Virus record (IMG/VR): IMGVR_UViG_3300043419_001109
Location: 1 to 39,513 of that record
Source of the DNA: a virus
Reading direction: 5' to 3' (one strand)
DNA: 39,513 nt
Of the stretch, positions 20,107 through 39,489 are shown piece by piece. The notes beneath the pieces were generated by a model. The model was not told where the DNA came from. It searched no databases and worked only from the letters and a program-made list of their open reading frames with translations. The translations under genes and the position numbers were made by a program. Numbering within the stretch: the stretch's first letter is position 1; the number at the start of each line of letters is the position of its first letter.

Positions 20107-20151
20107 AGGCATGATCGCGGGAAGCACCCGCCTAACACAAAGGAGAATATC

Positions 20152-25499: not shown

Positions 25500-26195
25500 A
25501 TGAGATTATTATTTGATCACGTTCATGGCTTTGGAAAAATGGCGCAGGAAGCAATACTTTATTATCCATGTGCTGCTATATTTGAAGAATATGAATATCC
25601 TATGGCACTGGAGACAGGCTGGTTCCCGTTAAATAAACATATGTGGTTTCAGAGTCGCAGCACCAGGATAGACTTATCACTTTATAAAACGGGCAAAAGT
25701 ATCCTAAAGAATTCTAGAAAGATAACTTGGCATCTCTGGAAGCCAGATAAGAAATTACTTGGACCCATATATGAAAAGTATCTTGCACATAAAGGCTATA
25801 ATGGCAATAACTTAACACTTGATGATATCTGTGATAACAGCAACCAGATATTATTATATCGTCGCAATGGTAAGTTTATAGGTTTCCTTGCTTTCAAGAT
25901 TATCGGTAAAGCATTTCTTTCTGTTGAATTTGCATGGGATTACGAAGAGCCACAGTTAAGTCTAGGCCATGTATCCCGCCACGTTGAATCTCTACTTGCA
26001 AAGCAGCGTGGATGCAGGTATATTTACATGAGTAGCGGGTATGAAACATGCTCCCTGTATAAAGGCGACTATCTTGGATTTCAATGGTGGAAAGGTTACG
26101 AGTGGTCAAGTGATGTTGACATGTATCGCCAGATGTGTCACAATGACTCCGCTGTTGAGGTAAAGAATTACTTCAATCGGCTGGAGGAAAAATGA
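25500..26195 (+). CDS. Aminoacyl-tRNA-protein transferase-like (ATE/Bpt C-terminal GNAT fold)
   Basis: The C-terminal half resembles arginyl/leucyl-tRNA-protein transferases: LLGPIYEKYLAHKGY, a GNAT-like strand pair (KFIGFLAFKI), SLGHVSRHVESLLAKQRG, then YIYMSSGYETCSLYKGDYLG and WWKGYEW. This matches their 'SLG ... YLYLGY ... MKYK ... P ... W' pattern. The N-terminal part (ALETGWFPLNKHMWFQSRST) replaces the cysteine-rich domain of cellular enzymes. If active it would add an amino acid to acceptor N-termini, creating degrons. No Shine-Dalgarno precedes the ATG; M14 is an alternative start. An ordinary GNAT is the alternative. The next gene acts on peptidyl-tRNA. Confidence 0.55.
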   Translation: MRLLFDHVHGFGKMAQEAILYYPCAAIFEEYEYPMALETGWFPLNKHMWFQSRSTRIDLSLYKTGKSILKNSRKITWHLWKPDKKLLGPIYEKYLAHKGYNGNNLTLDDICDNSNQILLYRRNGKFIGFLAFKIIGKAFLSVEFAWDYEEPQLSLGHVSRHVESLLAKQRGCRYIYMSSGYETCSLYKGDYLGFQWWKGYEWSSDVDMYRQMCHNDSAVEVKNYFNRLEEK

Positions 26196-26539
26196 GCATC
26201 TATAAACAAGTTATTGTAATGCGTAAGTTCCCTTCTCTCCGCAAGGGCAAGTATATTGCGCAAGGTTGCCATGCCTCACTAGAGGCTGCCACCCAAGCGT
26301 CAAAGAAACATCTTTTGGAGTGGGCACTGTCTGGCAATACAAAGATCGTTGTATATGTTGAAAGCGAGTTGGAACTTCGCCGCTTGCGTCATGACTGTGA
26401 GTATGCTAAGATTCCCTGCTATCTTGTTGAGGACGCAGGGCGGACAGAATTTCCAGAGCCAACAATAACTGCACTTGGTATTGGACCCGCGAGCAGTGAA
26501 GAAATTGATAAGATTACAGGACACCTACCACTTTTTTAA
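26192..26539 (+). CDS. Peptidyl-tRNA hydrolase 2 (Pth2)
   Basis: Releases tRNA from prematurely dropped peptidyl-tRNA. Motifs of the Pth2 fold: KQVIVMRKFPSLRKGKYIAQ, GCHASLEAA (catalytic-region His), KIVVYVESELELRRL, VEDAGRTEFPEPTITALGIG and the end IDKITGHLPLF. 115 aa, the usual size. This is the archaeal/eukaryotic-type enzyme, different from bacterial Pth, so it is not host-like in kind. Overlaps the transferase-like gene by four bases (ATGA), with GGAGG upstream. Confidence 0.9.
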   Translation: MSIYKQVIVMRKFPSLRKGKYIAQGCHASLEAATQASKKHLLEWALSGNTKIVVYVESELELRRLRHDCEYAKIPCYLVEDAGRTEFPEPTITALGIGPASSEEIDKITGHLPLF

Positions 26540-26549
26540 TGAGGATAAA

Positions 26550-27590
26550 ATGATTCAATATGCTGATGTGATCGTAGATTTACAGCAGGGTGATAGTGGA
26601 AAGGGCAAGGTGGCAAACTATCTTGCCAAAACACGATCTTATACACATGTTGTGCGTTATAATGGCAGTAATAATGCAGGGCACACTATTTATGTCAATG
26701 GAAAAAAGGTGGTGACACATAGTATTCCTGTCGGCGTATTACACGGAATCAAAAGCATTATTGGCCCAGGTTGCGTAGTAAATGTCGAGCATTTCTTCAA
26801 TGAGTTGAGGGAACTTGAAGATGCTGGAATTAATACTCGCGGTCTTGTGTATATTGCAAATAACGCTCATATCATTACAGATAGTCATCTTAGTGAGGAT
26901 CGGGCCGATAGTAAGATTGGTACAACTAAACGAGGCAACGGTCCAGCGTACCGTGATAAGTATGCAAGAGAAGGTACGCGAGCATCACAGGTTGCGGAAC
27001 TCCAACCATACCTAATTGATATTCACGAAGAATTCTATAATAGTTTTACCGACTGCCGCATCCTATTTGAAGGAGCGCAGGGTTTCTATCTTGATATTGA
27101 TTGGGGCGACTATCCCTATGTAACAAGCTCGCATTGCACTGTTGGTAGCGCGATTATGAATGGTGTGCCTCCACAGAAGATTCGCCATATCTATGGTGTC
27201 GCCAAGGTATATGAAACCTATGTAGGCGCAAAAGAGTTTGAACCAGCAGGTAATCCTACGTTTAGTAAGATGCGCGAACTCGGCGGCGAATACGGTGCAA
27301 CAACTGGCCGTCCGCGCCAATGCAACTGGATTAATGTTAACAACTTAAGTAAGGCAATCCAGATGAACGGCGTAACGCATCTTATCTTTAACAAGATTGA
27401 TGTTCTCCGAGAACTTGGACAGTACGCCGCATATAATAACGGTAAATTAATCAAGTTCCGCGACGAAGTTGACATGGCTAACTATTTTATTGATGTTGCA
27501 GAGTTTTCAGAAGTGTGTAATATTACCTTCTCTGACAATCCAGATGATATCCATGACCATGCCGCAGGAGTGGAAGCGGCGACAGGATAA
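26550..27590 (+). CDS. PurA/PurZ-family synthetase, short archaeal/phage form (346 aa)
   Basis: Ligates aspartate to a purine nucleotide using a nucleoside triphosphate. DLQQGDSGKGK (10-20) is the P-loop: PurA has GDEGKGK and phage PurZ, as I recall it, GSTGKG. Here the catalytic Asp15 of PurA is kept but the next Glu is Ser. His45 in NNAGHT, KIGTTKRGNGPAY, EGAQGFYLDIDWGDYPYVTS and the aspartate loop GATTGRPRQ are present. FNKIDVL fits guanine recognition, so GTP is the likely donor. Length matches archaeal PurA and PurZ rather than ~430 aa bacterial PurA. Likely product adenylosuccinate from IMP; dGMP as substrate cannot be excluded. Start chosen for GAGGATAAA upstream. Confidence 0.85.
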   Translation: MIQYADVIVDLQQGDSGKGKVANYLAKTRSYTHVVRYNGSNNAGHTIYVNGKKVVTHSIPVGVLHGIKSIIGPGCVVNVEHFFNELRELEDAGINTRGLVYIANNAHIITDSHLSEDRADSKIGTTKRGNGPAYRDKYAREGTRASQVAELQPYLIDIHEEFYNSFTDCRILFEGAQGFYLDIDWGDYPYVTSSHCTVGSAIMNGVPPQKIRHIYGVAKVYETYVGAKEFEPAGNPTFSKMRELGGEYGATTGRPRQCNWINVNNLSKAIQMNGVTHLIFNKIDVLRELGQYAAYNNGKLIKFRDEVDMANYFIDVAEFSEVCNITFSDNPDDIHDHAAGVEAATG

Positions 27591-28294: not shown

Positions 28295-28538
28295 TGGAAC
28301 ATATAAAACTATTCGCGTAAGACATCCATACCAGCCAACAAAAGACCCGCATAGGGTTAAAGATATTCAGCGTATACAAAATGCTATGCTCCTACATGGA
28401 TATTACGCCACAAGCGAACAGTGCGAAGAAATGTGGGAAATGAATAGCGATGATGTTTGTGCAAGCTGGCTTGTACTCCCAGCAGATGATGAATCTATTT
28501 ATAGAGAGATCAAACAATATTTTGAAGAAGTTAAATAA
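28284..28538 (+). CDS. Hypothetical protein (84 aa)
   Basis: Start has TGGAGCC upstream. N-terminus RSGTYKTIRVRHPYQPTK is basic; helices follow (VKDIQRIQNAMLLHGYYA, SEQCEEMWEMNSDDVCASWL). Ends on YREIKQYFEEVK, with the last base of the TAA serving the next ATG (TAATG). Unrecognised. Confidence 0.6.
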   Translation: MNRSGTYKTIRVRHPYQPTKDPHRVKDIQRIQNAMLLHGYYATSEQCEEMWEMNSDDVCASWLVLPADDESIYREIKQYFEEVK

Positions 28539-28783
28539 TGTCTAAGTTTAAACCGGGCGATTTACTGTCTATCAATAGCGATGTTAACGCTGAAAGCGGA
28601 TACTGGTGGGAGGGGTCCGGCCTCCTTCTCAGTAATGAAAACGGCTTTTATCTACTAGAAATGATTTTTTTTAATAGAATCAACCGTCGTAACTTTGCGG
28701 TAACAGAGCGATATAATTATCGCCTAACCGTGCCCATAAAAGAATCTGACTACATTGGGTTATTTTATTTGGATGAGGACTAA
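28538..28783 (+). CDS. GDLL-family small protein (81 aa)
   Basis: FKPGDLLSIN (residues 4-13) is the family entry motif, with Lys-Pro for Glu-Val. GSGLLLSNENGFYLLEMIFF corresponds to the YLVL and YKLM strands of the array members. The end is DYIGLFYLDED rather than KVA. Coupled to the gene before by TAATG. Outlier copy about 2 kb upstream of the main array. Confidence 0.65.
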   Translation: MSKFKPGDLLSINSDVNAESGYWWEGSGLLLSNENGFYLLEMIFFNRINRRNFAVTERYNYRLTVPIKESDYIGLFYLDED

Positions 28784-28811
28784 TTATATTATCCAAAGGA
28801 GGCCCAATGAT

Positions 28812-29420
28812 ATGGCAAAGGATAAAAACGAAAAGTTAACAGCACTTCCACTGATCACAGAGAAACAATTAAAGGCAATTTACCCAAACTGCAAACCAGA
28901 AAAAGTAAAAAGCTATACAGCAGCATTCAATGTTGTATTCCCAATCTTTGAAGTTGATACACCGGCACGTATTGCGGCATTCTTAGGTCAGGTTGGAGTT
29001 GAGAGCGGCGAACTACGCTACGATAAAGAGCTACCAAGCAAATATAACAAGAAAGATCCAAAAGATCCAAATGAACCATGCGGTTCACTTTATGAAGGTC
29101 GCAAGCTATTAGGTAATACACAGGCTGGTGACGGACCAAAGTTTATTGGTCGCGGAGTTCTACAATTAACTGGCCGTGCAAACTATACCGATATGAGCAA
29201 GAAAATTGGTATTGATCTAGTCGCGCACCCAGAGAAAGCAGCAGAAGCAGATGTCTCTGTACGTATTGCTTGCCAGTTCTTTAAGGATCGTGGACTATTT
29301 GCCAAAGCAGATGCCTGGGATCTACGCGAAATTACCCGTCGTGTAAATGGTAATGCTTGCCTACATCACGAACAACGCGTTGCATTTAGCGAGAAAGCAT
29401 TAAAAGTTCTAACAGCTTAA
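28812..29420 (+). CDS. Endolysin, glycoside hydrolase family 19 (chitinase-like lysozyme)
   Basis: Cuts peptidoglycan glycan strands at lysis. GH19 pattern: IAAFLGQVGVESGELRYDKE with catalytic Glu64 and Glu67 nearby, YEGRKLLGNTQAGDGPKFIG, GRGVLQLTGRANYTD, later ACQFFKDRGLFAKAD and the helix EITRRVNGN. 202 aa with no separate cell-wall-binding domain and no signal peptide, so it needs a holin. Start at 28812 is preferred: AAAGGAGG lies nine bases before, and MAKDKN gives the compact protein. Followed by a terminator and two membrane-linked genes. Confidence 0.9.
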   Translation: MAKDKNEKLTALPLITEKQLKAIYPNCKPEKVKSYTAAFNVVFPIFEVDTPARIAAFLGQVGVESGELRYDKELPSKYNKKDPKDPNEPCGSLYEGRKLLGNTQAGDGPKFIGRGVLQLTGRANYTDMSKKIGIDLVAHPEKAAEADVSVRIACQFFKDRGLFAKADAWDLREITRRVNGNACLHHEQRVAFSEKALKVLTA

Positions 29421-29433: not shown

Positions 29434-29478
29434 AAATAGCACGGCTGGGTAAAACTGGCCGTGCTATTTTTTATTTTT
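29434..29478 (+). terminator. Rho-independent terminator
   Basis: Twelve-base stem AAATAGCACGGC / GCCGTGCTATTT with loop TGGGTAAAACTG, followed by TTTATTTTT. Ends the endolysin transcript. Confidence 0.92.
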
Positions 29479-29533: not shown

Positions 29534-29839
29534 ATGGAAGAAACTACTATGGAAGCCCCACACACCGTAGCTACTGTTGGTGCAGAGCCAAGTCTCGGTA
29601 GCGAATTAGCAATGGTCAAAGACCTAACTGGCGGTAACCCAGTTGTGACCGTTGTTCTCGCAGCAATTCTTATGGTTGGTGGTCCCGCTGGTTGGAAGTT
29701 CTGGACTGCTCGTCAAAAAGCAAAAACAGAACTAGAAGAAAAGCGCATGGAACTTGAAGCAAAAATCAAGCTAGCTGAAATTAAAGCTGCTGATAATGAC
29801 GACGAACCAAAGAAAGGTAAGAAAAGTAAGAAAGCTTAA
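29534..29839 (+). CDS. Single-span membrane protein, holin or spanin candidate (101 aa)
   Basis: A strong AAGGAG site. Residues ~36-57 (PVVTVVLAAILMVGGPAGW) form one membrane helix. The following 40 residues are a charged coiled coil (ARQKAKTELEEKRMELEAKI) ending in a Lys-rich tail (KKGKKSKKA), which would be cytosolic by the positive-inside rule. The acidic/neutral N-terminus (about 35 aa) would then be periplasmic. Position right after the endolysin supports a lysis role; type not decided. Confidence 0.6.
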   Translation: MEETTMEAPHTVATVGAEPSLGSELAMVKDLTGGNPVVTVVLAAILMVGGPAGWKFWTARQKAKTELEEKRMELEAKIKLAEIKAADNDDEPKKGKKSKKA

Positions 29840-29853: not shown

Positions 29854-30549
29854 ATGACTGACAAATATAATTGGGCCGAAGACCCTCGTCCGGTATGCAT
29901 AATACCCGATGGGGGCTTTTCGTCTCTATCTCAAATAGGTGATTGTAAATTTCCTCAAGATTATAGTGGCCCGCTTATTTCATTTTCTTCGGAAATAGTA
30001 GATAAACACGGGCATCCGTTAGATGGGGATAATGATCCTCATGGTAAAAATGGCTGCGACCATCGTGATACAAAAGAATGGAAAGCAGAACACAGACATA
30101 AAAAAATAGAAAAGAAAGAAATAAAAGAAGTAAAAACAGAACAGCTTACGGCAACGGTTGAAGTACCAACCCGTCCAATTGATGTTCCAAAACCTCCACA
30201 GAAAGCAGATGGCTTAGCTTCTTTGCCAATCCTAACTGGCGCGATAGCCGGTGCAGTAAGTTCTGCCGCTGGTCCGGTGGCGGGGAAGTTTTTAAAAACC
30301 TTATTTAATAAATTATTTAAAAATAATAAATTTAATGCAAAGGAAGATAAGAAAGAACAACCAACCGATTGCAAAACATCACAGATGAATACATTTGCTA
30401 GATTTAGAACGCTGGAGGCCAAAGTATCTGCACTTGAAGGAAAAGAAGGCTCAGGAAATATTAAAGTAGGCAGCAATAGCCTAGAAGAAATCATTGAAAG
30501 ATTAGAGAATCTAGAGAAAGGGAGAAAGAAATCCAAGGAAAAAATATAA
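29854..30549 (+). CDS. Unknown protein with hydrophobic segment and coiled coil (231 aa)
   Basis: N-terminal part has Cys/His/Asp-rich loops (RPVCIIPDGGF, DKHGHPLDGDND, NGCDHRDTKEW). A very charged stretch (HRHKKIEKKEIKEVKTEQ) leads to a Gly/Ala-rich hydrophobic segment (LPILTGAIAGAVSSAAGPVA, about 125-144), then a lysine-rich part and a short coiled coil (LEEIIERLENLEKGRKK). It may insert in membrane. Next to lysis genes, but no lysis family is recognised. Stop overlaps next ATG. Confidence 0.55.
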   Translation: MTDKYNWAEDPRPVCIIPDGGFSSLSQIGDCKFPQDYSGPLISFSSEIVDKHGHPLDGDNDPHGKNGCDHRDTKEWKAEHRHKKIEKKEIKEVKTEQLTATVEVPTRPIDVPKPPQKADGLASLPILTGAIAGAVSSAAGPVAGKFLKTLFNKLFKNNKFNAKEDKKEQPTDCKTSQMNTFARFRTLEAKVSALEGKEGSGNIKVGSNSLEEIIERLENLEKGRKKSKEKI

Positions 30550-30743
30550 TGTTTAGAGTAAAGGATGTTCTTGTCGGATTATTAGATAATATGAATGGCG
30601 AGCATCGTTTCTATGAAGTAACAAAAGTATATAAAAGCGATACGATGACGCTCTATGATATACGGGCATTAAAGACAGGAATAATGTATCACAAGGTAAT
30701 GCTACCAGAGGGATACTATAAAAAGATAGACAAAGTAAGATAA
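30549..30743 (+). CDS. Diverged VGDLL-family protein (64 aa)
   Basis: The first of the paralogue run. FRVKDVLVGLL replaces F-x-VGDLV; FYEVTKVYK, YDIRALKTGIM and GYYKKIDKVR match the array's later strands, TG turn and Y-x-K ending. Coupled by TAATG. The Gly-Asp pair is Lys-Asp here, so the loop may differ. Family role unknown. Confidence 0.6.
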   Translation: MFRVKDVLVGLLDNMNGEHRFYEVTKVYKSDTMTLYDIRALKTGIMYHKVMLPEGYYKKIDKVR

Positions 30744-30758: not shown

Positions 30759-30801
30759 CAATATAGCACAGTTGACCTTCATGGTTGGCTGTGCTATATT
30801 G
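30759..30801 (+). promoter_or_regulatory. Thirteen-base inverted repeat overlapping a promoter
   Basis: CAATATAGCACAG and CTGTGCTATATTG are perfect reverse complements around a 17-base loop. The right arm contains the -10 of the promoter at 30772. Could end the upstream transcript (only CTTTG follows) or act as a regulator site. Confidence 0.6.
30772..30800 (+). promoter_or_regulatory. Sigma70 promoter, possibly giving a leaderless mRNA
   Basis: TTGACC, 17 bases, TATATT. The ATG at 30808 lies seven bases after the -10, where transcription would be expected to start, and has no Shine-Dalgarno. Confidence 0.55.
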
Positions 30802-30807: not shown

Positions 30808-31017
30808 ATGCGAAACGACATTCACCGTCCCGAAGTTGGCGATCTGTTGCAGAGTAACAATAATGATGATGTGGTGCTTATACTAGAGAAGACACTTGAC
30901 AACAAGTCCAAGTGCATGGTAGTCTATGCTTCACCAGATAGAAAACCCTGGTCCGTTACTGTTGGCAGTATTTTAAAAAACATACACTTCTATAAAGATG
31001 CTTGGGAGATACTCTGA
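30808..31017 (+). CDS. PEVGDLL-family protein (69 aa)
   Basis: PEVGDLLQ at residues 8-15, strand DVVLILEK, then CMVVYASPDRKPW and a helix end FYKDAWEIL. No ribosome site before the ATG; see promoter at 30772. The C-terminus lacks KVA. Stop TGA overlaps the next ATG (TGATG). Confidence 0.7.
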   Translation: MRNDIHRPEVGDLLQSNNNDDVVLILEKTLDNKSKCMVVYASPDRKPWSVTVGSILKNIHFYKDAWEIL

Positions 31018-31283
31018 TGCAAAATATAGAAATTCGCAACGCAGAGAGCGCAGCAAAATTAGCTTTTGCTGTCCATCATAGCTTCCAAGTTGGAGATATT
31101 TTAAAAGAAATAGGTAGCGATACTGGTTACTCAGTTATGGTTATTGGAACTGTAGACAGTAATGAAGTTTATGATGTTATGGTAATGAAAGAAGCAGCGT
31201 CAGAGCATAGAGTCCCAGGTGCAGTAATTGGTGCGATAATTAAAAATCATCTTTTTCCTAGCACTTCTTGGGAGCGAGTTTAA
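31017..31283 (+). CDS. VGDIL-family protein with helical N-terminal extension (88 aa)
   Basis: About 22 residues (QNIEIRNAESAAKLAFAVHH) precede FQVGDILKEIG. Strands YSVMVIGTV and YDVMVMKEA follow, then a helix and the end STSWERV. The extension is unlike those of its neighbours. Family role unknown. Confidence 0.68.
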   Translation: MQNIEIRNAESAAKLAFAVHHSFQVGDILKEIGSDTGYSVMVIGTVDSNEVYDVMVMKEAASEHRVPGAVIGAIIKNHLFPSTSWERV

Positions 31284-31475
31284 ATGACAATCTTTAATTT
31301 CCGTGTTGGCGATCTTGTTCAGAAGAAGTCCAACGGCCATATCTATCTTGTTCTTTCAGCAAAGAAGCAAGAAGATAACTCTCTTGTTATGTATATGGTT
31401 CGCTGCATGACTGATGGCAAACTGGATCACATCCGCTCAGCTCTCCCAAAGGGACTGTATAAGAAGGTTGCATAA
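31284..31475 (+). CDS. VGDLV-family protein (63 aa)
   Basis: A compact example: FRVGDLVQKK (6-15), IYLVLSAKK, YMVRCMTDGK, end GLYKKVA. Abuts the previous stop. Carries every family feature in the shortest form, so it is a good reference member. Confidence 0.75.
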   Translation: MTIFNFRVGDLVQKKSNGHIYLVLSAKKQEDNSLVMYMVRCMTDGKLDHIRSALPKGLYKKVA

Positions 31476-31499
31476 TAAACTCTAGTTATAGAGGTAAAC

Positions 31500-31688
31500 A
31501 TGAAAGACTTACCCGAGATTGGTGACCTTGTGAGGCGTAAGTACACAGAAGATTATTATCTTGTCCTCAGAAAAGAATATTCCGAAAGAAGCGGTCAGCT
31601 CTCGTCGTTCACAACACAAGAGATAAAAACAGGTAGATATATTAAAATCGTATATCATGAATTTTATGATGATTATGTTAAGGACTAA
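31500..31688 (+). CDS. EIGDLV-family protein (62 aa)
   Basis: PEIGDLVRRK (5-14), YYLVLRKEY, IKTGRYIKI. The end FYDDYVKD is acidic and lacks KVA, and this gene has its own ribosome site (TAGAGGTAAAC) instead of a coupled start. Confidence 0.72.
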   Translation: MKDLPEIGDLVRRKYTEDYYLVLRKEYSERSGQLSSFTTQEIKTGRYIKIVYHEFYDDYVKD

Positions 31689-31691
31689 TAT

Positions 31692-31904
31692 ATGACACTC
31701 AAACCAAAAATTATTCGCAACAGCGCACATTGCGATATGTGCGATGAAGAGGTTGAAAGCAAGTTTCGCCATGACTTCCAAAGTTGCTCATGCAATAATA
31801 TTTCAGTAGACGGTGGCAAGGACTATATCAAGCGTAGCTGGGGCGGCGGCAAGTGGCATGACACAAGCATCACCGATCCACCCTTGACAGAAGATGAGAT
31901 CTAG
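31692..31904 (+). CDS. Zinc-binding conserved phage protein (70 aa)
   Basis: Not a family member. CDMCDEEVESKFRHDFQSCSC with VDGGKDYIKR is a pattern I recall from many phages: two C-x2-C-like pairs (C18-C21, C36-C38) and a His make a zinc site, then a DGG-DY-x-R turn. Function unknown. Its 3' end contains the promoter at 31884. Confidence 0.7.
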   Translation: MTLKPKIIRNSAHCDMCDEEVESKFRHDFQSCSCNNISVDGGKDYIKRSWGGGKWHDTSITDPPLTEDEI

Positions 31905-31912
31905 GGTAAAGT
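31884..31912 (+). promoter_or_regulatory. Sigma70 promoter
   Basis: TTGACA, 17 bases, TAAAGT followed by CCCTTCA. Spans the end of the zinc protein gene and drives the gene at 31936. Confidence 0.65.
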
Positions 31913-31935
31913 CCCTTCACGATGAGGAGACGCCA

Positions 31936-32118
31936 ATGAAGAAATTAAATGTAAAATATGAAGTTGGTGATCTTATTGTAAAAAGAAAAGAGCGGTTACA
32001 CTATCTTGTAATAGGTCTTTTTCCTTACCAATATAAATTAATGGATCTAAAGACAGAAGAAATAGTAGTGAAGTCAAAAACGGAGATCCACACAACAGCC
32101 TATAAAAAAAGGGGTTAA
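31936..32118 (+). CDS. YEVGDLI-family protein (60 aa)
   Basis: YEVGDLIVKRK (8-18), YLVIGLFPY, YKLMDLKTEE and an end AYKKRG. ATG chosen for GAGGAGACGCC upstream. It has its own promoter, so this member can be expressed apart from the main array. Confidence 0.75.
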   Translation: MKKLNVKYEVGDLIVKRKERLHYLVIGLFPYQYKLMDLKTEEIVVKSKTEIHTTAYKKRG

Positions 32119-32844: not shown

Positions 32845-32873
32845 TTGACAGTTAACGGTCACTAGGCTATAGT
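32845..32873 (+). promoter_or_regulatory. Near-consensus sigma70 promoter at the head of the tandem array
   Basis: TTGACA, 17 bases, TATAGT, then CACTTCA, in a true intergenic gap. It is the last clear promoter before the 22-gene array, and no terminator is seen until after 37960. Confidence 0.8.
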
Positions 32874-32896: not shown

Positions 32897-33046
32897 ATGT
32901 GGAACCCCTTTCGTAAGACCCAGCAGAATCAGGAAGAAATGTTCAAGCAGATGATGGAGGCCATGATGGCCAAGGCTGACGAACAGGAACGCCCATATCG
33001 TAGTACCAAAATTGGATTTGGAGCAAACTTCAATGTCGGTGAATAA
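32897..33046 (+). CDS. Small Met/Gln-rich protein leading the array (49 aa)
   Basis: Excellent ribosome site (AAGGAGGCAGCG) 24 bases behind the promoter. MWNPFRKTQQNQEEMFKQM continues as a Met-rich helix (MEAMMAKADEQE) and ends FGANFNVGE. Unrelated to the family in sequence. Its stop lies 13 bases inside the next gene, so it may act as a translation-priming lead gene for the array. Confidence 0.65.
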   Translation: MWNPFRKTQQNQEEMFKQMMEAMMAKADEQERPYRSTKIGFGANFNVGE

Positions 33047-33239
33047 AGCTGATTATGAGATTGGGGATCTTATCTATGCTCGGTCTGGGCTACCAGATGA
33101 AGCGGCATTGATTATAGGCGTTGATGATAGTTATGAAACTTATAAACTGATGCCTTTACGAGTTAGTCCACTTGCCCATATAGTTACAAACGAGATGATG
33201 AGTTTCCATGTTGCCCACAAATACTTCCAAAGGGTTTGA
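33033..33239 (+). CDS. Array member 1, YEIGDLI type (68 aa)
   Basis: YEIGDLIYARSG (8-19), AALIIGVDD, YKLMPLRVSP, end HKYFQRV. The start lies inside the 49-aa lead gene. The TG turn is replaced by SP, and the next gene starts 32 bases before this one ends, the longest overlap in the array. Confidence 0.72.
   Translation: MSVNKADYEIGDLIYARSGLPDEAALIIGVDDSYETYKLMPLRVSPLAHIVTNEMMSFHVAHKYFQRV
33208..33239 (+). other. Longest gene overlap in the array
   Basis: Members 1 and 2 share 32 bases in different frames, in contrast to the one- or four-base overlaps elsewhere. It may be the relic of an older junction where the KVA/stop/start element was lost. Confidence 0.45.
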
Positions 33240-33426
33240 AGTTGGCGATTTACTCAAGTGTACAGTAATAGAAGAAGTTGATGACCCGCCTATGTATTTT
33301 CTGTTACTGGAAAATATGACATCCTCAAACCCGTTTGATAGAAATCGGTGGCGAGTATTAAATCACACAACTGGTGAGACGATGATAACATACGTGCCAC
33401 CTGATATGTGGGAAAAGGTAAAGTAA
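33208..33426 (+). CDS. Array member 2, FEVGDLL type (72 aa)
   Basis: FEVGDLLKCTV (10-20), MYFLLLENM, WRVLNHTTGETM, end MWEKVK. The ribosome site is weak and internal to member 1. The terminal AAAAGGTAAAG gives the next gene its site, with stop and start fused as TAATG. Confidence 0.74.
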   Translation: MLPTNTSKGFEVGDLLKCTVIEEVDDPPMYFLLLENMTSSNPFDRNRWRVLNHTTGETMITYVPPDMWEKVK

Positions 33427-33662
33427 TGGATAAAGTATTTTCATTATGGGAGGTTGGCGACCTGCTTAAGCATAAGGCAAATCAGCGGGGAGTACATGAA
33501 ACTCGTCTCGTAATTGGCGTGGTAAGCGTTGAAGGATTTCATAGCAGTATGTACGACGGGAAGAACGAAGACGGCATCCTTTATGAATCTCTTGACTTGA
33601 ATACGGGTGGCGTGTTACTTAGTTATCTACACGGTTGGGTATGGGAGAAGGCAGATGGCTAA
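33426..33662 (+). CDS. Array member 3, WEVGDLL type (78 aa)
   Basis: WEVGDLLKHKAN (8-19), ETRLVIGVVS, LYESLDLNTGGVLLSYL, end WVWEKADG. Trp replaces the usual Tyr/Phe before EVGD. The longer loop between strands (SVEGFHSSMYDGKNED) distinguishes it. Confidence 0.74.
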   Translation: MDKVFSLWEVGDLLKHKANQRGVHETRLVIGVVSVEGFHSSMYDGKNEDGILYESLDLNTGGVLLSYLHGWVWEKADG

Positions 33663-33909
33663 CTTTAATATTGGCGAAGTTATATACCGCAAGGCTTATG
33701 AAGGACGCGAAGCGTACCTTATTCTTGGTGTAAGTTTTTCCAATCATAAAAAATACACGCTCTATAATCTAACCGTAGATAGACTTATTCAAGACGAAAG
33801 CGTCCCCCCTTATGAAAGGGCGCTTATCGTTAGTCACAATCATCTGCTTGTTACAAGCAAGGAAAAGGATATATGGGGCAAGATTGATGACACCCCAGTA
33901 GCAGAATAG
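33655..33909 (+). CDS. Array member 4, FNIGEVI type (84 aa)
   Basis: FNIGEVIYRKAY (4-15), AYLILGVSF, YTLYNLTVDRL, then an insertion (VPPYERALIVSHNHLLV) and end WGKIDDTPVAE. GE replaces GD as in the PEIGE[LV]W subgroup. Start is preceded by GAGAAGGCAG. Confidence 0.7.
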   Translation: MANFNIGEVIYRKAYEGREAYLILGVSFSNHKKYTLYNLTVDRLIQDESVPPYERALIVSHNHLLVTSKEKDIWGKIDDTPVAE

Positions 33910-33916
33910 GTGTAAT

Positions 33917-34291
33917 ATGCGCCCAGATTTCACAATAAACATTGAAGGTGAAGGCTGTGTCCGCATTAGTGGTTATGAATGCGGACTTCCGCCTATGGAA
34001 ATAAAATCAAAATACTGTAAACTTGATGGTATGTACGGCAAGAATAATACCCTATACATAACACGTGTAAGGCCATATGCAATGGAAGAACGACACCACA
34101 CAGAAAAACCAAAGTACGAAGTTGGTGATCTATTAGATTGGAGCGGTGGAAAGTTCCTTGTTCTTGGATATAAGCAAGAAGATAGTGATCTTGTATGGAG
34201 AGACGAATATGAATTGTATTCCCCTGTAACTGGTTCCGTGATAGAGTTCTCTATTCGCTTCCTTGAAAGCGAAGCAGAACTGGTGGCATAA
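33917..34291 (+). CDS. Array member 5, YEVGDLL with 65-residue N-terminal extension (124 aa)
   Basis: The family domain starts at Tyr67 (YEVGDLLDWSG, KFLVLGYKQED, YELYSPVTGSV). The first 65 residues (INIEGEGCVRISGYECGLPP, YCKLDGMYGKNNTLYITRVR) form a separate beta-rich module with three cysteines, unique in the array. This is a domain fusion rather than a start error, since AATAGGTGTAAT precedes the ATG. Confidence 0.72.
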   Translation: MRPDFTINIEGEGCVRISGYECGLPPMEIKSKYCKLDGMYGKNNTLYITRVRPYAMEERHHTEKPKYEVGDLLDWSGGKFLVLGYKQEDSDLVWRDEYELYSPVTGSVIEFSIRFLESEAELVA

Positions 34292-34554
34292 TGATCCGTC
34301 CCGAAATAGGCGAAGTTTGGATTGAGCGGCTATCTAGACAAACTCTAGATAGAAATAACCTACAACACGATGCCAACAGCGATATGCGTTTTCTTGTTCT
34401 GTCGGCTGGGAAAGAAGTTGAAGACATAAAGAGAAACAAAGATCTAGGCGGTGGTATCTATACCTATACTATCTATAATTATGAGATAGACCAAGTAGAA
34501 GAGATAGAGTTATTCCTTGGCGGCGACTCATACGAATACGTGAGGATAGCATGA
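34291..34554 (+). CDS. Array member 6, PEIGEVW subgroup (87 aa)
   Basis: PEIGEVWIERL (4-14), RFLVLSAGKE, YTIYNYEIDQVEE, end YEYVRIA. Contains a long charged loop (SRQTLDRNNLQHDANSD). Ends with GAGGATAGCATGA: ribosome site, stop and next start in 13 bases. Confidence 0.72.
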   Translation: MIRPEIGEVWIERLSRQTLDRNNLQHDANSDMRFLVLSAGKEVEDIKRNKDLGGGIYTYTIYNYEIDQVEEIELFLGGDSYEYVRIA

Positions 34555-34754
34555 CGTTCAAATACGAAGTTGGCGACCTCCTCCAAACAAACGAAAAAGC
34601 ATACCTTTCCTGCCCAAAGTGTCTGCTCGTACTCCGTCAAGATCTAGCAGACGAGAAGTACCTTGCAGGTTATTATTGTCTTGACCCAGCAAAAGAAGAG
34701 TACTATGATCTCTCTACTGTCCATGTTCACAGGAACTATAGGAAGGTGGAGTAG
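34551..34754 (+). CDS. Array member 7, YEVGDLL type with CPKC (67 aa)
   Basis: YEVGDLLQTNEK (5-16), SCPKCLLVLRQD with a C-x2-C at 21-24 unique in the family, YYCLDPAKEE, end NYRKVE. The TG turn is AK here. A metal site would need a partner, so oxidation or dimer zinc binding is open. Confidence 0.74.
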   Translation: MTFKYEVGDLLQTNEKAYLSCPKCLLVLRQDLADEKYLAGYYCLDPAKEEYYDLSTVHVHRNYRKVE

Positions 34755-34755
34755 A

Positions 34756-34977
34756 ATGCGTGAAGGACCATATGAAACCGGCGACCTCCTTGTTAGATGG
34801 GTTGGGGTTAAAAAAGATAAATTAAGAGAATATTATTTGGTTCTTGGAACCAATGAAGATAGCAGCATGTGTCAAGGGCATACATATACATTATACAATC
34901 TCCTAAATGTTGCCAAGAATGAAAATCTATGGTGGCATGAGACATATGTTCACACTGTTATGAGGAAGGCGGCGTAA
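34756..34977 (+). CDS. Array member 8, YETGDLL type (73 aa)
   Basis: YETGDLLVRWVG (6-17), YYLVLGTNED, YTLYNLLNVAKN, end TVMRKAA. Thr replaces Val before GDLL, as in members 15 and 16. One base separates it from the next gene. Confidence 0.74.
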   Translation: MREGPYETGDLLVRWVGVKKDKLREYYLVLGTNEDSSMCQGHTYTLYNLLNVAKNENLWWHETYVHTVMRKAA

Positions 34978-34978
34978 C

Positions 34979-35185
34979 ATGGACAGGAAGCATACATATC
35001 AGGTTGGCGATCTATTAAAGCATGCGGCGGTAGGCGTTGCACCATATGCGCTCCTTGTCCTGGAAAGGATGCCTGATCCCACGTGGGAAACGAACCTGGT
35101 ATATCGTGTACTTGATACCCGAAGCGGAAGTATCTATGTAGAAAACCAACTTTATGTAGATAAAAACTACACGAGGATCGCCTAA
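34979..35185 (+). CDS. Array member 9, YQVGDLL type (68 aa)
   Basis: YQVGDLLKHAAV (7-18), YALLVLERM, YRVLDTRSGSIYV, end NYTRIA. AAGGCGGCGTAAC at the end of member 8 provides its ribosome site; its own ACGAGGATCGCCTAATG serves member 10. Confidence 0.76.
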   Translation: MDRKHTYQVGDLLKHAAVGVAPYALLVLERMPDPTWETNLVYRVLDTRSGSIYVENQLYVDKNYTRIA

Positions 35186-35412
35186 TGACCGAACCAGATT
35201 TCCATGATTGGCAGCCGCACTCTTTTGAGGTAGGTGACCTACTGGTTGGGCGTACTCCTGCATTGGAAGATTACTTTAAGTCTTTTCTTGTGTTAGAGTG
35301 CTATAAAAGAAAAGACACTGGTGCGCCCTATTACAGAATGATGAATGTAAGGACTGGCGATATCTCGCATCACCATAAGGTAGAGATAGAGCTAGCGTTT
35401 GAGAGGGTATAA
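35185..35412 (+). CDS. Array member 10, FEVGDLL type (75 aa)
   Basis: FEVGDLLVGRTP (14-25), KSFLVLECYK, YYRMMNVRTGDIS, end LAFERV. The N-terminal MTEPDFHDWQPHS is longer than usual and acidic/aromatic. Ends GAGAGGGTATAATG. Confidence 0.76.
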   Translation: MTEPDFHDWQPHSFEVGDLLVGRTPALEDYFKSFLVLECYKRKDTGAPYYRMMNVRTGDISHHHKVEIELAFERV

Positions 35413-35630
35413 TGGGACACCTACCGCGTAAGTTTGAAGTTGGCGATCTCGCACAGCGTAAGGTGAAATCCAATATTAATCTTTCAGATAAAATTCTTAT
35501 ACTCCAATACGGGGTACTCCATAATGCCCTTATTAGCTGGGATTCCTATAAAATCCTACAGTTGGATACTGGCGATGTAACAGAAATAGTTGCAGGACTT
35601 ATAGATAATAATTATAAAAAGGCTACATAG
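35412..35630 (+). CDS. Array member 11, FEVGDLA type (72 aa)
   Basis: FEVGDLAQRKVK (8-19), KILILQYG, YKILQLDTGDVTEI, end NYKKAT. Ala replaces the second Leu. Stop is TAG, overlapped by the GTG start of member 12 (TAGTG). Confidence 0.76.
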   Translation: MGHLPRKFEVGDLAQRKVKSNINLSDKILILQYGVLHNALISWDSYKILQLDTGDVTEIVAGLIDNNYKKAT

Positions 35631-35839
35631 TGCATTATAAATATGAAATTGGTGATCTATTAGATATATCCGGCGAACATACTGTACCAAAAAAAGACGC
35701 TAAGCAGGAATGCTTCCTCGTAATAGGGTATAAAACATACGGCGAACGCCCATTTTACTGTTTGATGGGTACAACCACAGGTGAGCAATACGAACACGGC
35801 CAGGAAACAGTAGAAAAGTTTTTCTATAGGATCGCATAA
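35630..35839 (+). CDS. Array member 12, YEIGDLL type, GTG start (69 aa)
   Basis: YEIGDLLDISGE (5-16), CFLVIGYKTYG, YCLMGTTTGEQYE, end FFYRIA. The only GTG start in the array; the TAGTG junction keeps the one-base overlap rule. Confidence 0.76.
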   Translation: MHYKYEIGDLLDISGEHTVPKKDAKQECFLVIGYKTYGERPFYCLMGTTTGEQYEHGQETVEKFFYRIA

Positions 35840-36033
35840 TGTATAAGTATGAGATAGGTGATCTGATCCAAAATGCATTTGGAGAAGGTTACCTCATACT
35901 TGGGGTAAAAGAGTTTAAGCGTAATAACGCCAAGTTGACCTACGCCAAGTATCAAATAATGCGCTTGCGTAACCAAGAGATCTTGTGGTATAACGCTCGT
36001 GAACTTGAGAAAGTTACCTACAAGGTGGCATAA
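35839..36033 (+). CDS. Array member 13, YEIGDLI type (64 aa)
   Basis: YEIGDLIQNAFG (4-15), GYLILGVKEF, YQIMRLRNQEILW, end VTYKVA. Shortest member of the array. Junction AAGGTGGCATAATG is the clearest example of the shared Shine-Dalgarno/KVA coding. Confidence 0.77.
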   Translation: MYKYEIGDLIQNAFGEGYLILGVKEFKRNNAKLTYAKYQIMRLRNQEILWYNARELEKVTYKVA

Positions 36034-36236
36034 TGCAGCCCACATATGAAACTGGTGATCTTATACGGGTAAGGGAGCAGAACAGGATAGAAGGCGTTAA
36101 TGGCATCTATCTTGTATTAGATTTCTATAAACCAGAACTTATGGGAAACTTATATAAACTAATGAATGTAAAGTCCGGTGCCGTTGTAGACTTTAGAGAA
36201 GTAACTGTCAACACTTATTTTTATAAGGTAGCCTAA
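36033..36236 (+). CDS. Array member 14, YETGDLI type (67 aa)
   Basis: YETGDLIRVREQ (5-16), GIYLVLDFYK, YKLMNVKSGAVVD, end YFYKVA. Junction AAGGTAGCCTAATG. SG replaces TG. Confidence 0.77.
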   Translation: MQPTYETGDLIRVREQNRIEGVNGIYLVLDFYKPELMGNLYKLMNVKSGAVVDFREVTVNTYFYKVA

Positions 36237-36445
36237 TGCTTACAACGGGAAGCGAAATAGAAACCGGCGACATTATAGAAGATATGCATAGCGGCAGTCG
36301 CTATCTCCTACTAGACCTAACCGAAGAGTGGTGGGAGAACACAAAAGAATGGAAAGCAACCTATAAAGCCATGTCGCTTGAAGATGGTAGTATAGAAAAG
36401 TTTGATAGCTATATGATGCACTATTACTTTTTTAAGGTTGCATAA
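36236..36445 (+). CDS. Array member 15, IETGDII type (69 aa)
   Basis: IETGDIIEDMHS (8-19), RYLLLDLTEEW, YKAMSLEDGSIEK, end YYFFKVA. Acidic overall, unlike the Lys/Arg-containing neighbours. Junction AAGGTTGCATAATG. Confidence 0.76.
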   Translation: MLTTGSEIETGDIIEDMHSGSRYLLLDLTEEWWENTKEWKATYKAMSLEDGSIEKFDSYMMHYYFFKVA

Positions 36446-36645
36446 TGGAATATAAATATGAAGTTGGAGATCTTCTCAGGGATAATGTTAATAGCCGCCA
36501 TCTTCTTGTACTTGGTATGAGAGAAGAAGTTATTGGCTCCTATAAATCAATGTACGGACTTTATAAGATAATGTGGGTAGACAACGGGGGAATAGAAGAG
36601 ATTGGTAAGAACTATTCTGAAAGAGAATGCGAAAAGATCGCCTAA
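36445..36645 (+). CDS. Array member 16, YEVGDLL type (66 aa)
   Basis: YEVGDLLRDNVN (5-16), HLLVLGMREE, YKIMWVDNGGIEE, end ERECEKIA. DNG in place of the TG turn, shared with members 21 (VNNGK) in form. Junction AAAGATCGCCTAATG has the weakest ribosome site of the KVA/KIA type. Confidence 0.76.
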   Translation: MEYKYEVGDLLRDNVNSRHLLVLGMREEVIGSYKSMYGLYKIMWVDNGGIEEIGKNYSERECEKIA

Positions 36646-36866
36646 TGGAAGAAAGAGACTACATGGGCACGATTCAATTTCCAGAAATCGGGGAACTGTG
36701 GTACTATGAACCTCTTGAAGGTAACTTCCTTATTGTATCCGAACCGGAAGTAGTTCATGAATATATGTGGAAGATAGAGTGCCTCTATCTAAAGCAGGAA
36801 AGAGTTATCCATTTATTTTTTGATCGGGATCAACTTAAGCGCAACTCTTTCTATAAGGTGGCCTAA
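36645..36866 (+). CDS. Array member 17, PEIGELW subgroup (73 aa)
   Basis: PEIGELWYYEPL (13-24), NFLIVSEPEVV, IECLYLKQERVIH, end SFYKVA. First of three neighbouring Pro-type members. The first 12 residues (EERDYMGTIQF) are an extra; M7 is an alternative start without ribosome site. Confidence 0.74.
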   Translation: MEERDYMGTIQFPEIGELWYYEPLEGNFLIVSEPEVVHEYMWKIECLYLKQERVIHLFFDRDQLKRNSFYKVA

Positions 36867-37069
36867 TGTATAACACAGTGTGGCCCGAGATTGGCGAGGT
36901 TTGGTTCTTTGAGAAAGAAGAAGAACATTATCTTATCCTTTCCGAAAGGAAGCATATCTGGAATGACGCTATAACTGTAAAAGGCTTGCATACCAAAACC
37001 GGCGCAATAGATAATATTATGATATATGTAACCGAGATTGACGAAGGTCATGCAAGGCGGGTAGCATAA
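36866..37069 (+). CDS. Array member 18, PEIGEVW subgroup (67 aa)
   Basis: PEIGEVWFFEKE (7-18), HYLILSERKH, VKGLHTKTGAIDN, end HARRVA. Closest to member 6 in the entry motif and to member 17 in position, so local duplication within the subgroup is likely. Confidence 0.75.
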   Translation: MYNTVWPEIGEVWFFEKEEEHYLILSERKHIWNDAITVKGLHTKTGAIDNIMIYVTEIDEGHARRVA

Positions 37070-37305
37070 TGGAAAATAGGCTACCCGAAGTAGGCGAACT
37101 GTGGACATGGCTGAGAAACCTTGACGGCAAAGAAATGGACCACTTTCTTGTAATCGGGGAACCAACTCCGATCCCAAAGATAGAACTAATGGGCGACTAT
37201 AAAGATCCATATGGCATAAAAGTTATGTGGGTATACGACGGAGATATTGGCAATATGATTATAGACCGAACCGATATGCATAATCATATAAGGAAGGTTG
37301 CATGA
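37069..37305 (+). CDS. Array member 19, PEVGELW subgroup (78 aa)
   Basis: PEVGELWTWLRN (6-17), HFLVIGEPTPI, IKVMWVYDGDIGN, end NHIRKVA. Longer central loop (PKIELMGDYKDP). Ends AAGGTTGCATGA, with the next ATG overlapping by four bases. Confidence 0.75.
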   Translation: MENRLPEVGELWTWLRNLDGKEMDHFLVIGEPTPIPKIELMGDYKDPYGIKVMWVYDGDIGNMIIDRTDMHNHIRKVA

Positions 37306-37511
37306 GTCTTTATCAATATGAAGTGGGCGATCTAATCCATTACCGAAAAGGAAACGGACTAGACCCAAATAGGTATATGCTTGTATTAGAGCATACAACC
37401 AAGAATACAAGTATCTTTACGCAGCGGGCATATAAACTACTTGAAGTAAGACGGGGAGATGTGCTAGAGTGGGAACAAGATTGGGTAGAGGGGGAAATGA
37501 TTCCGGCATAG
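37302..37511 (+). CDS. Array member 20, YEVGDLI type (69 aa)
   Basis: YEVGDLIHYRKG (6-17), YMLVLEHTTK, YKLLEVRRGDVLE, end VEGEMIPA. Its 3' end lacks the KVA/Shine-Dalgarno form, and the next gene has a separate GGGAGG nine bases later: one of the few uncoupled junctions. Confidence 0.76.
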   Translation: MSLYQYEVGDLIHYRKGNGLDPNRYMLVLEHTTKNTSIFTQRAYKLLEVRRGDVLEWEQDWVEGEMIPA

Positions 37512-37520
37512 GGAGGCAAT

Positions 37521-37745
37521 ATGGTAGACTTTCAGTTTGAAGTTGGCGATCTCCTAAAACATAATCCAGACAAGCCACTTACAAAAAAACAGGATGATAT
37601 CCACCATTTCCTTGTTCTAGAAATATTTAATTACGAGGATATAGCGGGGATATATCCATATTATAAATTAATGTGTGTAAACAATGGCAAGATCATGGAT
37701 CATAAACGCCAATTTATTGAGAACTGGCTTGTAAAGGCGGCATAA
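37521..37745 (+). CDS. Array member 21, FEVGDLL type (74 aa)
   Basis: FEVGDLLKHNPD (6-17), HFLVLEIFNYE, YKLMCVNNGKIMD, end NWLVKAA. Own ribosome site (AGGGAGGCAAT). Junction AAAGGCGGCATAATG to member 22. Confidence 0.76.
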   Translation: MVDFQFEVGDLLKHNPDKPLTKKQDDIHHFLVLEIFNYEDIAGIYPYYKLMCVNNGKIMDHKRQFIENWLVKAA

Positions 37746-37960
37746 TGCAACCAAAATACGAAATCGGGGACTTAATAAAGTTAAGAACAGCGCTATCAAC
37801 CAGTCCAACACAGAATTTTCCAGCACTTGTCCTAGGACATAGGATATCAACAGCGGGCGTATTCCCAAATGCTGTATATAAACTTATGTACCTAGATCCT
37901 AAGAATATAACAATGGAAAGAACCCAAGATTGGATAGATCGGGAATACGAGTATGCATAA
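37745..37960 (+). CDS. Array member 22, YEIGDLI type, last of the array (71 aa)
   Basis: YEIGDLIKLRTA (5-16), PALVLGHRIS, YKLMYLDPKNITM, end REYEYA. The final codons lack a good ribosome site, yet the stop still overlaps the endonuclease ATG (TAATG), so the endonuclease may depend on coupling. Confidence 0.76.
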   Translation: MQPKYEIGDLIKLRTALSTSPTQNFPALVLGHRISTAGVFPNAVYKLMYLDPKNITMERTQDWIDREYEYA

Positions 37961-39489
37961 TGGCTATTAAGAAAACACTAGAACAGTTTTTATTAGATGC
38001 AAGAGCAGCGCATGGCGATAGATATGATTATAGTAATATTAAAATATATTATAATGACGCTACAAAAGTAGAGATCGTATGTTCTATTCATGGATCTTTT
38101 TTTCAAACTCCACATAGTCATATTTCTGGTCATGGTTGCCCAGAGTGCGCAAAAAAGTCTAATACAAACACGCTTGAAAGTTTTTTAGAATCCAGCAAAA
38201 GAATCCATAATAATTTTTATGATTATTCTAAAGTTACAGAATATAAGAATAGCTATACAAAAGTAGAAATTATATGTCCAACACATGGTTCTTTCTGGCA
38301 GAAGCCTGCCCCTCATCTTCGCGGAGTTGGATGCAAAAAATGCGCATCTGATGCCAGAAAAAAAACACTTAAAGGTTTTATAGAGGAATGTATCAAATTA
38401 CATGCTAATAAATTTGACTATAGCAAGATTACAGAATATGTAAATGCTTTTACTAAAGTAGAAATCGTATGCCCAATTCATGGCTCGTTCTGGCAAACAC
38501 CAAACGATCACTTAAGAGGTGATGGTGGCTGTTTATCATGTTCGCTAGAAAAAAGAAGGAATACACTTGAATATTTTATTCAAAAATCAAACGAGGTACA
38601 CAATAATTTCTATGACTATAGCAGGATTACGGAATACAAGGGTGGAGAGAGTAAACTAGAGATTGTATGCCCAAATCACGGCCCATTTTGGCAATTAGCA
38701 AAAAATCATATGAACTCAGGGCAGGGATGCTTAAAATGTGCAATAGAAGAAGCTACGTTTACAACCGAATACTTTGTCCAAAAAGCAAAGGAAGTGCATG
38801 GTGATCTCTATGATTATAGCAAGATTACAGAATACAAGAATAGCTACACAAAAGTAAAAATTATATGCCACCAACATGGAGAGTTCTTACAAAATCCTGC
38901 TGAACATTTGCGTGGTAGTAAATGTCCGGATTGCGTAATAAAAGAAAAAACGCATACCTTCCAAAGTTTCCTAGATAGAAGCAATCTTGTACATAAAAAT
39001 ATATACGACTATAGCAAGATTACAGAATATGTAAATATCTCAACAAAGGTTGAGATTGTTTGCGCTAAGCATGGATCATTCTGGCAAAGACCTTTTGATC
39101 ATGTCAATGGTTCCGGTTGCCCTAGATGCTCAAAAAGCGTATCAATTAAAGAAACCGCATGGCTGGACTATCTAGGCGTACCGGATCTAACAGAAACCCA
39201 TAGGCAGGTAAAGATAAAGATCGGAAATAAAAAATATGTCATAGATGGATATGACCCACAAACAAATACGGTATATGAATTTCATGGGGATTACTGGCAT
39301 GGTAACCTAAACATATACCAACCAGATGAACTAAATCAAGTAACTGGCAAGAGTATGCAGTACCATTATGACCAAACATGCCGGAAGCATAGGGATATAA
39401 AAGGTGCCGGTTATAATCTTGTATGGATATGGGAAAGTGATTGGAAGAAACAGGTAGCAGTACAAAAGATGTTCAAAGGGGCCGCATAA
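37960..39489 (+). CDS. Six-repeat zinc-ribbon protein with C-terminal nuclease domain, probable homing endonuclease (509 aa)
   Basis: Six repeats of about 65 residues (to about residue 390) each carry F-x-x-x-A/S ... H-x-x-x-YDYS-x-I-TEY, K[VL]EI[VI]C-x2-HG-F-Q and a closing C-x2-C. The C-x3-H and C-x2-C pairs can bind one zinc per repeat and probably track DNA. The C-terminal domain (VIDGYDPQTNTVYEFHGDYW and later GYNLVWIWESDW) has the look of a Vsr/PD-(D/E)xK-type nuclease, with D and E-x-H in place of E-x-K. Similar repeat plus nuclease proteins occur in large viruses. Target unknown. TAATG joins it to the array and to the next gene. Confidence 0.72.
   Translation: MAIKKTLEQFLLDARAAHGDRYDYSNIKIYYNDATKVEIVCSIHGSFFQTPHSHISGHGCPECAKKSNTNTLESFLESSKRIHNNFYDYSKVTEYKNSYTKVEIICPTHGSFWQKPAPHLRGVGCKKCASDARKKTLKGFIEECIKLHANKFDYSKITEYVNAFTKVEIVCPIHGSFWQTPNDHLRGDGGCLSCSLEKRRNTLEYFIQKSNEVHNNFYDYSRITEYKGGESKLEIVCPNHGPFWQLAKNHMNSGQGCLKCAIEEATFTTEYFVQKAKEVHGDLYDYSKITEYKNSYTKVKIICHQHGEFLQNPAEHLRGSKCPDCVIKEKTHTFQSFLDRSNLVHKNIYDYSKITEYVNISTKVEIVCAKHGSFWQRPFDHVNGSGCPRCSKSVSIKETAWLDYLGVPDLTETHRQVKIKIGNKKYVIDGYDPQTNTVYEFHGDYWHGNLNIYQPDELNQVTGKSMQYHYDQTCRKHRDIKGAGYNLVWIWESDWKKQVAVQKMFKGAA
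37975..39129 (+). repeat. Six in-frame ~195-base repeats
   Basis: Protein-level tandem repeat within the endonuclease-like gene. Nucleotide identity is highest where the conserved 'DYSKITEY' block is encoded (TATAGCAAGATTACAGAATA in several copies), indicating internal duplication. Confidence 0.85.

Follow-up and report, generated by a model that had tools for sequence, protein, structure and literature searches.

Layout of the array

We analysed the complete IMG/VR virus record IMGVR_UViG_3300043419_001109, a stretch of 39.5 kilobases (kb) from an uncultured phage (hereafter, the window), which carries a tandem array of small, deeply diverged genes of one family. The array comprises 22 open reading frames at 33033-37960, every one on the plus strand, most of which overlap or abut the next gene, usually with a gap of -1 or -4. 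Their products are about 64-87 residues long, apart from one of 124 residues. A first-pass annotation of this DNA had described 22 consecutive genes of one family uninterrupted by any unrelated gene, and both points were confirmed; every copy contains the entry motif [VIT]-G-[DE]-[LIV], and sequence profiles confirm the homology. Its count was too low for the family as a whole, because the window holds at least 27 members: the run of 22 and five more, outside the span first reported, which sit among unrelated small genes at 30808-32118. The full entry motif has no copy on the minus strand of the window. The family members and the leader gene of the array are listed below (E, expectation value).

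30549-30743, plus strand, probable 28th member (MFRVKDVLVGLLDN...); E=0.007 with a four-phage profile and E=0.24 with a profile from relatives only; length and tail pattern alike
30808-31017, plus strand, member u1, 69 residues; leave-one-out E=7e-6
31017-31283, plus strand, member u2, 88 residues; leave-one-out E=0.2, relatives-only profile E=0.0014
31284-31475, plus strand, member u3, 63 residues; leave-one-out E=7e-7
31500-31688, plus strand, member u4, 62 residues; leave-one-out E=9e-5
31936-32118, plus strand, member u5, 60 residues; leave-one-out E=1e-9
32897-33046, plus strand, array leader gene, 49 residues, outside the family
33033-33239, plus strand, member a01; profile tests; best cross-phage match G004_26629
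33208-33426, plus strand, member a02; profile tests
33426-33662, plus strand, member a03; leave-one-out test, relatives-only profile just E=0.17
33655-33909, plus strand, member a04, with a C-terminal extension; profile tests
33917-34291, plus strand, member a05, 124 residues, with an N-terminal extension of about 66 residues ahead of the barrel; leave-one-out test
34291-34554, plus strand, member a06, the weakest in the run; leave-one-out E=0.1, four-phage profile E=2e-4
34551-34754, plus strand, member a07, the copy with CPKC; profile tests
34756-34977, plus strand, member a08; profile tests
34979-35185, plus strand, member a09; profile tests
35185-35412, plus strand, member a10; profile tests
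35412-35630, plus strand, member a11; profile tests
35630-35839, plus strand, member a12, GTG start; profile tests
35839-36033, plus strand, member a13; profile tests
36033-36236, plus strand, member a14; AlphaFold2 model, SH3-like barrel, predicted template modelling score (pTM) 0.81
36236-36445, plus strand, member a15; profile tests
36445-36645, plus strand, member a16; profile tests
36645-36866, plus strand, member a17; profile tests
36866-37069, plus strand, member a18; AlphaFold2 model, strand order as in a14, pTM 0.80
37069-37305, plus strand, member a19; profile tests
37302-37511, plus strand, member a20; profile tests
37521-37745, plus strand, member a21; profile tests
37745-37960, plus strand, member a22, end of the run; profile tests

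The 65-residue fusion of the first-pass annotation corresponds to the long copy a05. Its extension, in which no Pfam match was found, may be optional, because an in-frame ATG lies inside the gene at 34082. Two further motifs that had been proposed, 'YKLM-x-TG' and 'Y-x-K-V-A', hold as tendencies of the family, and their literal forms occur in only a minority of copies.

Homology of the copies

Each of the 27 copies was scored by a profile built from the other 26 (Z=10,000), together with 10,800 shuffled decoys. In this leave-one-out test, 25 of the 27 copies were recovered at E<0.01, each above all of the decoys, so that the similarity exceeds that of shuffled sequences; u2 and a06 were the weakest copies. 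After trimming of the entry motif and the three C-terminal residues, 11 of the 27 copies still reached E<0.01 and 19 reached E<1 (again at Z=10,000). The most independent of the homology tests used a profile from the three other array-bearing phages alone (see below), which detected 25 of the 663 open reading frames of the window at E<0.01, all of them family members and none on the minus strand. These two tests rule out a chance motif as the explanation. The divergence among copies is extreme (about 20-30% identity), and the 25-copy alignment has no stretch with enough conservation for a direct scan. A satellite or recent repeat at the DNA level is also ruled out, as the array contains short motif repeats only and no tandem repeat.

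Comparisons with known families gave little. No named PHROG family matched several members at E<0.001; the best PHROG match had E 0.0013 and concerned a single copy, and all such matches were to families of unknown function. Searches of Pfam found no family that fits the copies. Neither the Pfam KOW nor the DUF1653 family matched any of 25 window copies or of the 27 members of alignment A2, and the Pfam SH3 families (SH3b cell-wall-binding domains) likewise had no match in the window copies or in alignment A2. A search for RNA elements, as another possible explanation, found none.

Gene ends

The copies tend to end in [KR]-[VI]-A, a motif that in the model of a14 is part of the last strand or adjacent to it. 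The codons of the same residues also spell AAGG or AGG, a Shine-Dalgarno sequence for the next start, and codon choice is biased accordingly: tail lysines in the window are encoded by AAG in 15 of 18 cases against 43% in the gene bodies (p=6e-4), and tail arginines by AGG in 10 of 12 against 16% (p=6e-7). The arginine bias recurs in other phages (p=3e-5 and 1e-5); the lysine bias recurs in G002 and G004 taken together (p=0.001), whereas G046 is without it (p=0.12). An alanine-ending tail is found in 41 of 50 copies coupled to a following start and in 10 of 25 uncoupled ones (p=5e-4). The C-terminal motif thus doubles as the last strand of the protein and as the ribosome-binding site of the next gene, which is a neat compression. 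We rejected the simpler idea that the tail is a ribosome-binding site only, because it also forms the last strand and is retained in some copies that are not coupled.

Predicted fold

AlphaFold2 gave confident models for a14 (25-row alignment; predicted local distance difference test score, pLDDT, 93.6) and for a18 (27 rows, 22 of them from other phages; pLDDT 95.4). The two models have an identical order of elements, namely strands, a short helix and a last strand, which form a five-stranded barrel; since their alignments have five rows in common, they are not fully independent tests. The SH3-like barrel that the first-pass annotation had proposed is supported by these two models, whose best solved-structure neighbours in Foldseek searches of the PDB are mainly SH3-, KOW- or Tudor-type barrels, at weak scores (best E 0.07-0.08, template modelling (TM) score 0.5 to about 0.6). 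These neighbours include the KOW domain of eS4, EF-P, NusG/Spt5, the N-termini of CarD and CdnL, and the VapX antitoxin, and they are mainly partners of the transcription or translation machinery. The best match in BFVD was a 67-residue phage protein (TM 0.80 both ways, E 0.002). DUF1653-type phage proteins in BFVD also gave barrel-like matches, e.g. a protein of Serratia phage Moabite (TM 0.73 to the query), but no array copy matches the Pfam family. Klebsiella phage KP8, two small proteins of which are BFVD fold matches, was scanned with the profile over its first 50 kb, and nothing matched. In the alignments, the core columns are conserved and many surface columns are near-random in composition, and no conserved polar site or basic patch was found other than the structural G-[DE] turn. 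The window copies are mostly acidic (isoelectric point, pI, below 6.5), and only u3, u5 and a13 are clearly basic.

These neighbours raise the question of whether the copies are KOW-like binders of RNA, DNA, the ribosome or RNA polymerase that tune the transcription or translation of different genes. KOW and translation-factor barrels dominate the structural neighbours, and those of eS4, EF-P and IF5A (domain I) and NusG/Spt5 share their topology with both models. An early protein of phage T4, MotB, has a predicted KOW domain and OB fold and binds DNA (PMC7827196), and diverged 'VGDLV...G(L/I)I' members of related phages look more KOW-like. The array copies themselves, however, are free-standing proteins of 60-90 residues in tandem, with neither a sequence match to these barrels nor a KOW motif; the acidic pI of most of them argues mildly against general nucleic-acid binding, as does the lack of a conserved basic patch. 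We regard this reading as unlikely. The RNA polymerase-interacting N-terminal domain of CarD/CdnL is a further SH3/Tudor-like neighbour and presumably has a similar 'VGD' entry, which we take as a lead only; unlike CarD/CdnL, the array copies lack a C-terminal DNA-binding domain and show no significant sequence match to it.

VapX of Haemophilus influenzae (6zn8 chain C), an SH3-like antitoxin of 66 residues, was retrieved with both models, at TM 0.60 to query and target for a14 (rank 46) and 0.49/0.50 for a18 (rank 47). This would fit a special case of counter-defence, in which the array is a bank of antitoxin-like proteins that neutralise different host toxins, such as those of toxin-antitoxin systems or abortive-infection effectors. 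The match is weak and not significant (E 0.5-0.75), is common to many SH3-like folds and has no sequence link. VapX is a single gene paired with the VapD toxin, and no toxin gene was found among the array neighbours examined; an antitoxin bank is accordingly a distinctly unlikely reading.

Arrays in related phages

Arrays of the same family occur in three other phages whose gene order agrees with that of the window across most genes: G002 (162 kb) has 34 members, G004 (41 kb) at least 15 and G046 (88 kb) 25. In each of them the array lies 0.4-2.7 kb 3' of the endolysin gene, across a gap that is filled differently in each phage, and a second cluster of members follows further on, on the minus strand. 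G002 also has two members just 5' of the endolysin gene and further copies far off, at 45-50 and 67 kb. The interval between the two clusters contains an AAA_5 ATPase gene, confirmed with Pfam in G002 and G046, or a similar open reading frame in G004; in G002 this gene adjoins one for a DUF2201 VWA/metallopeptidase protein. The landmark genes are as follows.

Window, 28755-29420, plus strand, endolysin (PHROG 181, E=5e-49); by synteny, the upstream landmark in all four array-bearing phages
Relatives, L049:680-3256, L204:18687-19748 and L059:10028-11134, minus strand, AAA_5 ATPase gene (G002 and G046) or similar open reading frame (G004)

The variable copy number in these relatives, like the conserved core and variable surface, is as the first-pass annotation had predicted. 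More distant relatives have about 1-9 diverged members each, and 204 of the 241 retrieved loci have no member at E<0.01. The arrays thus seem to have expanded in one lineage from a small number of ancestral barrel genes. Diverged 'VGDLV...GLI...' proteins of related phages (G054, G008 and L009), which share the entry motif, give weak profile matches at lower scores than array members, occur in about 1-9 copies and likely represent the state before the expansion. A junction pattern matched 21 places in 84,980 species genomes of bacteria and archaea, none of which encodes the family; a DNA pattern for the start plus VGDL gave mostly chance matches; and a search with a single G002 copy found itself alone.

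The position of the arrays bears on two alternatives. Because an endolysin gene lies 5' of all four arrays, with two G002 members just 5' of it, and because a stand-alone SH3 protein has been proposed in the lysis module of Drexlerviridae (PMC13164509), the copies could be lysis-associated or cell-wall-binding SH3 proteins that assist the endolysin. We consider this extremely improbable: the N-termini are not signal-like, the intervening 0.4-2.7 kb differs from phage to phage, a 15-pair terminator-like hairpin lies directly 3' of the endolysin gene of the window, G002 has copies far from its endolysin gene, and such a role has no need for 27 diverged copies. The shared fold and coupled translation would also suit the co-assembly of the copies as different subunits of a single complex or of the virion. 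The number and identity of copies differ widely between phages, however, members lie on both strands in three phages and no adjoining structural genes were recognised, which makes a heteromeric assembly highly improbable.

Evolution of the copies

For 24 of the 27 window copies, the closest match is another window copy, where 26% would be expected (p=1e-11). A similar excess of within-phage best matches is present in G002 and G046 and absent in G004. G002 and G046 show recent tandem duplicates, and four clear orthologue pairs link G002 and G004, three of which keep their order on the minus strand. The copies arise mainly by duplication within a phage, and a few persist as ordered orthologues. 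The ratio of nonsynonymous to synonymous divergence (pN/pS) was measured for ten pairs and lies at 0.46-0.65, with partial saturation of synonymous sites, and purifying selection acts in all compared pairs. This is birth-and-death evolution under purifying selection, with surfaces free to drift.

Extreme divergence and fast turnover could also mark a duplication-prone locus that gathers weakly useful or useless copies in a mostly neutral manner. This is very unlikely in view of about 100 intact frames across the four phages, the preserved core columns, pN/pS values near 0.5 in 10 of 10 pairs and the conservation of the embedded ribosome-binding sites.

Promoters

We scored sigma-70-type sites that match 11 or 12 of the 12 consensus bases, with the boundaries of the array regions set by eye. 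Such near-perfect sites number 11 on the coding strand of the array DNA (36.7 kb in all), against 0.8 in shuffled sequence, and they are denser in the arrays than in the remainder of these genomes (p=1e-5). The site of the window is as follows.

32845-32873, plus strand, promoter-like site TTGACA-17-TATAGT, 11 of 12 bases in the consensus scan, just 5' of the array leader gene

This site probably starts the main transcription unit of the array. The enrichment suggests early transcription of the arrays by host sigma-70 RNA polymerase, as far as promoter-like sequences can indicate timing.

Proposed function

The reading that we favour, at about an even chance, is that the array is an arsenal of small binders, each copy directed against a different host or defence protein, for host takeover or counter-defence. 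A binder set fits best with the combination of a minimal barrel, diverged surfaces, kept cores, coupled translation and probable early promoters. Under this model, stand-alone SH3-like barrel proteins of 60-90 residues would be translated through start-stop overlaps from a few mRNAs, which would probably be started early in infection by the host polymerase. Tandem duplication would supply more copies, which would retain the hydrophobic core and the G-[DE] turn while their loops and surfaces drift almost freely. Each copy would most likely bind and modulate or block a different host protein, for example one that takes part in transcription, translation or defence (a defence toxin is possible), and the array would serve as an arsenal that can be expanded. 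Protein binding, distinct targets and a counter-defence role are what we infer.

The case for host takeover or counter-defence, roles already suggested at first reading, is circumstantial and consists of the sigma-70-type promoters, the turnover, the purifying selection and the accessory-gene setting. Several results weigh against our reading. Only one of the 11 near-perfect promoter-like sites lies in the window and none in G004; no PDB match reached E < 0.001 in Foldseek; selection is only roughly measured, because synonymous sites are near saturation; and PADLOC-DB gave no match at E<0.5, which is uninformative because this library covers defence rather than counter-defence proteins.

A stronger version, which we put forward tentatively and consider less than likely, is that the array is a dedicated diversity generator, namely a genome-encoded library of binders on one minimal scaffold with copy-specific host or defence targets. 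It would differ from a set of unrelated anti-defence genes in that one duplicated scaffold carries the varied surface.

Genomic neighbourhood

The window encodes a DnaE-type DNA polymerase (6442-9873), DNA and RNA ligases, a ClpP-like head protease, GroEL, Hsp20, a PurZ/PurA-type adenylosuccinate synthetase and the endolysin. Its closest relative is a 55.8-kb contig (G006; polymerase 99% identical) that stops short of the array. Because relatives with a polymerase identity of about 70-74% are up to 162-174 kb long, the window probably represents part of a phage genome that large. Searches of 50,697 phage records with the window DNA, a 626-residue protein and copy a14 found no relevant relative, and a cultured relative of the window is therefore not known; the 626-residue protein, used as an anchor against viral contigs, also had no match. 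The gene that follows the array is listed below.

37969-39489, plus strand, multi-treble-clef endonuclease directly 3' of the array (PHROG 681, E=2e-92)

This endonuclease has about six treble-clef (DUF723/CapR-like) repeats, and a homologue also lies 3' of the G002 array (51% over 165 residues, at 39072).

The small gene at 28538-28783, just 5' of the endolysin gene, has a very weak family match (E=0.5), and the equivalent position holds a family member in G002 and G046. A lone open reading frame outside the arrays (19030-19401) has the entry motif as 'HEVGDLVRIPQ' and is kept in G002 and G004. Two long inverted repeats with similar arms (ATAGCAC...GTGCTAT), at 29434-29469 and 30759-30801, flank the genes at 29534-29839 and 29854-30549, homologues of which have a different location in G004; a promoter-like site overlaps the second of these repeats. 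The adenylosuccinate synthetase gene (26475-27590) and an IMPDH/GMP-reductase gene (10990-12015) occur alongside the DnaE-type polymerase, a gene content with which the phage may possibly contain 2-aminoadenine (Z) DNA. GroEL (522 residues, 16910-18478) and the Hsp20-like protein (20041-20535) are phage-encoded, and GroEL homologues are present in relatives. The gene at 25500-26195, conserved in G002, G005, G046 and G054, matches the Pfam arginine-tRNA-protein transferase C-terminal domain weakly, but above the cutoff (E=3e-6).

Relation to known systems and implications

Neither the barrel fold nor the concept of small phage genes that act early is new. T4 MotB resembles the array copies in being a phage protein with a predicted KOW/SH3-like domain, but it has two domains and is conserved among T-even phages with no array. 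Nip of phage phi3T, an early protein with two predicted SH3-like domains and an HU-like domain, binds and inhibits a defence NADase and is clustered with another counter-defence gene (PMC11984713). A phage protein with SH3-like domains can thus inhibit a defence enzyme by binding; unlike the array copies, Nip has 279 residues and three domains, and the comparison is by domain type, not by sequence. The first-pass annotation knew of no described phage system of this form, and we likewise found no coupled array of diverged barrel genes in the open-access literature searched. What we have not found described there is the arrangement itself, in which one barrel is present in over 20 coupled copies that have diverged deeply, with such arrays in four phages.

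The small genes that phages gather against host functions are usually unrelated to one another. In these four related phages, a single minimal fold has been multiplied to about 30 copies per genome, with its core kept. If each copy has its own target, these arrays would be ready-made natural binders against bacterial proteins and would perhaps offer a route to finding unknown defence systems.

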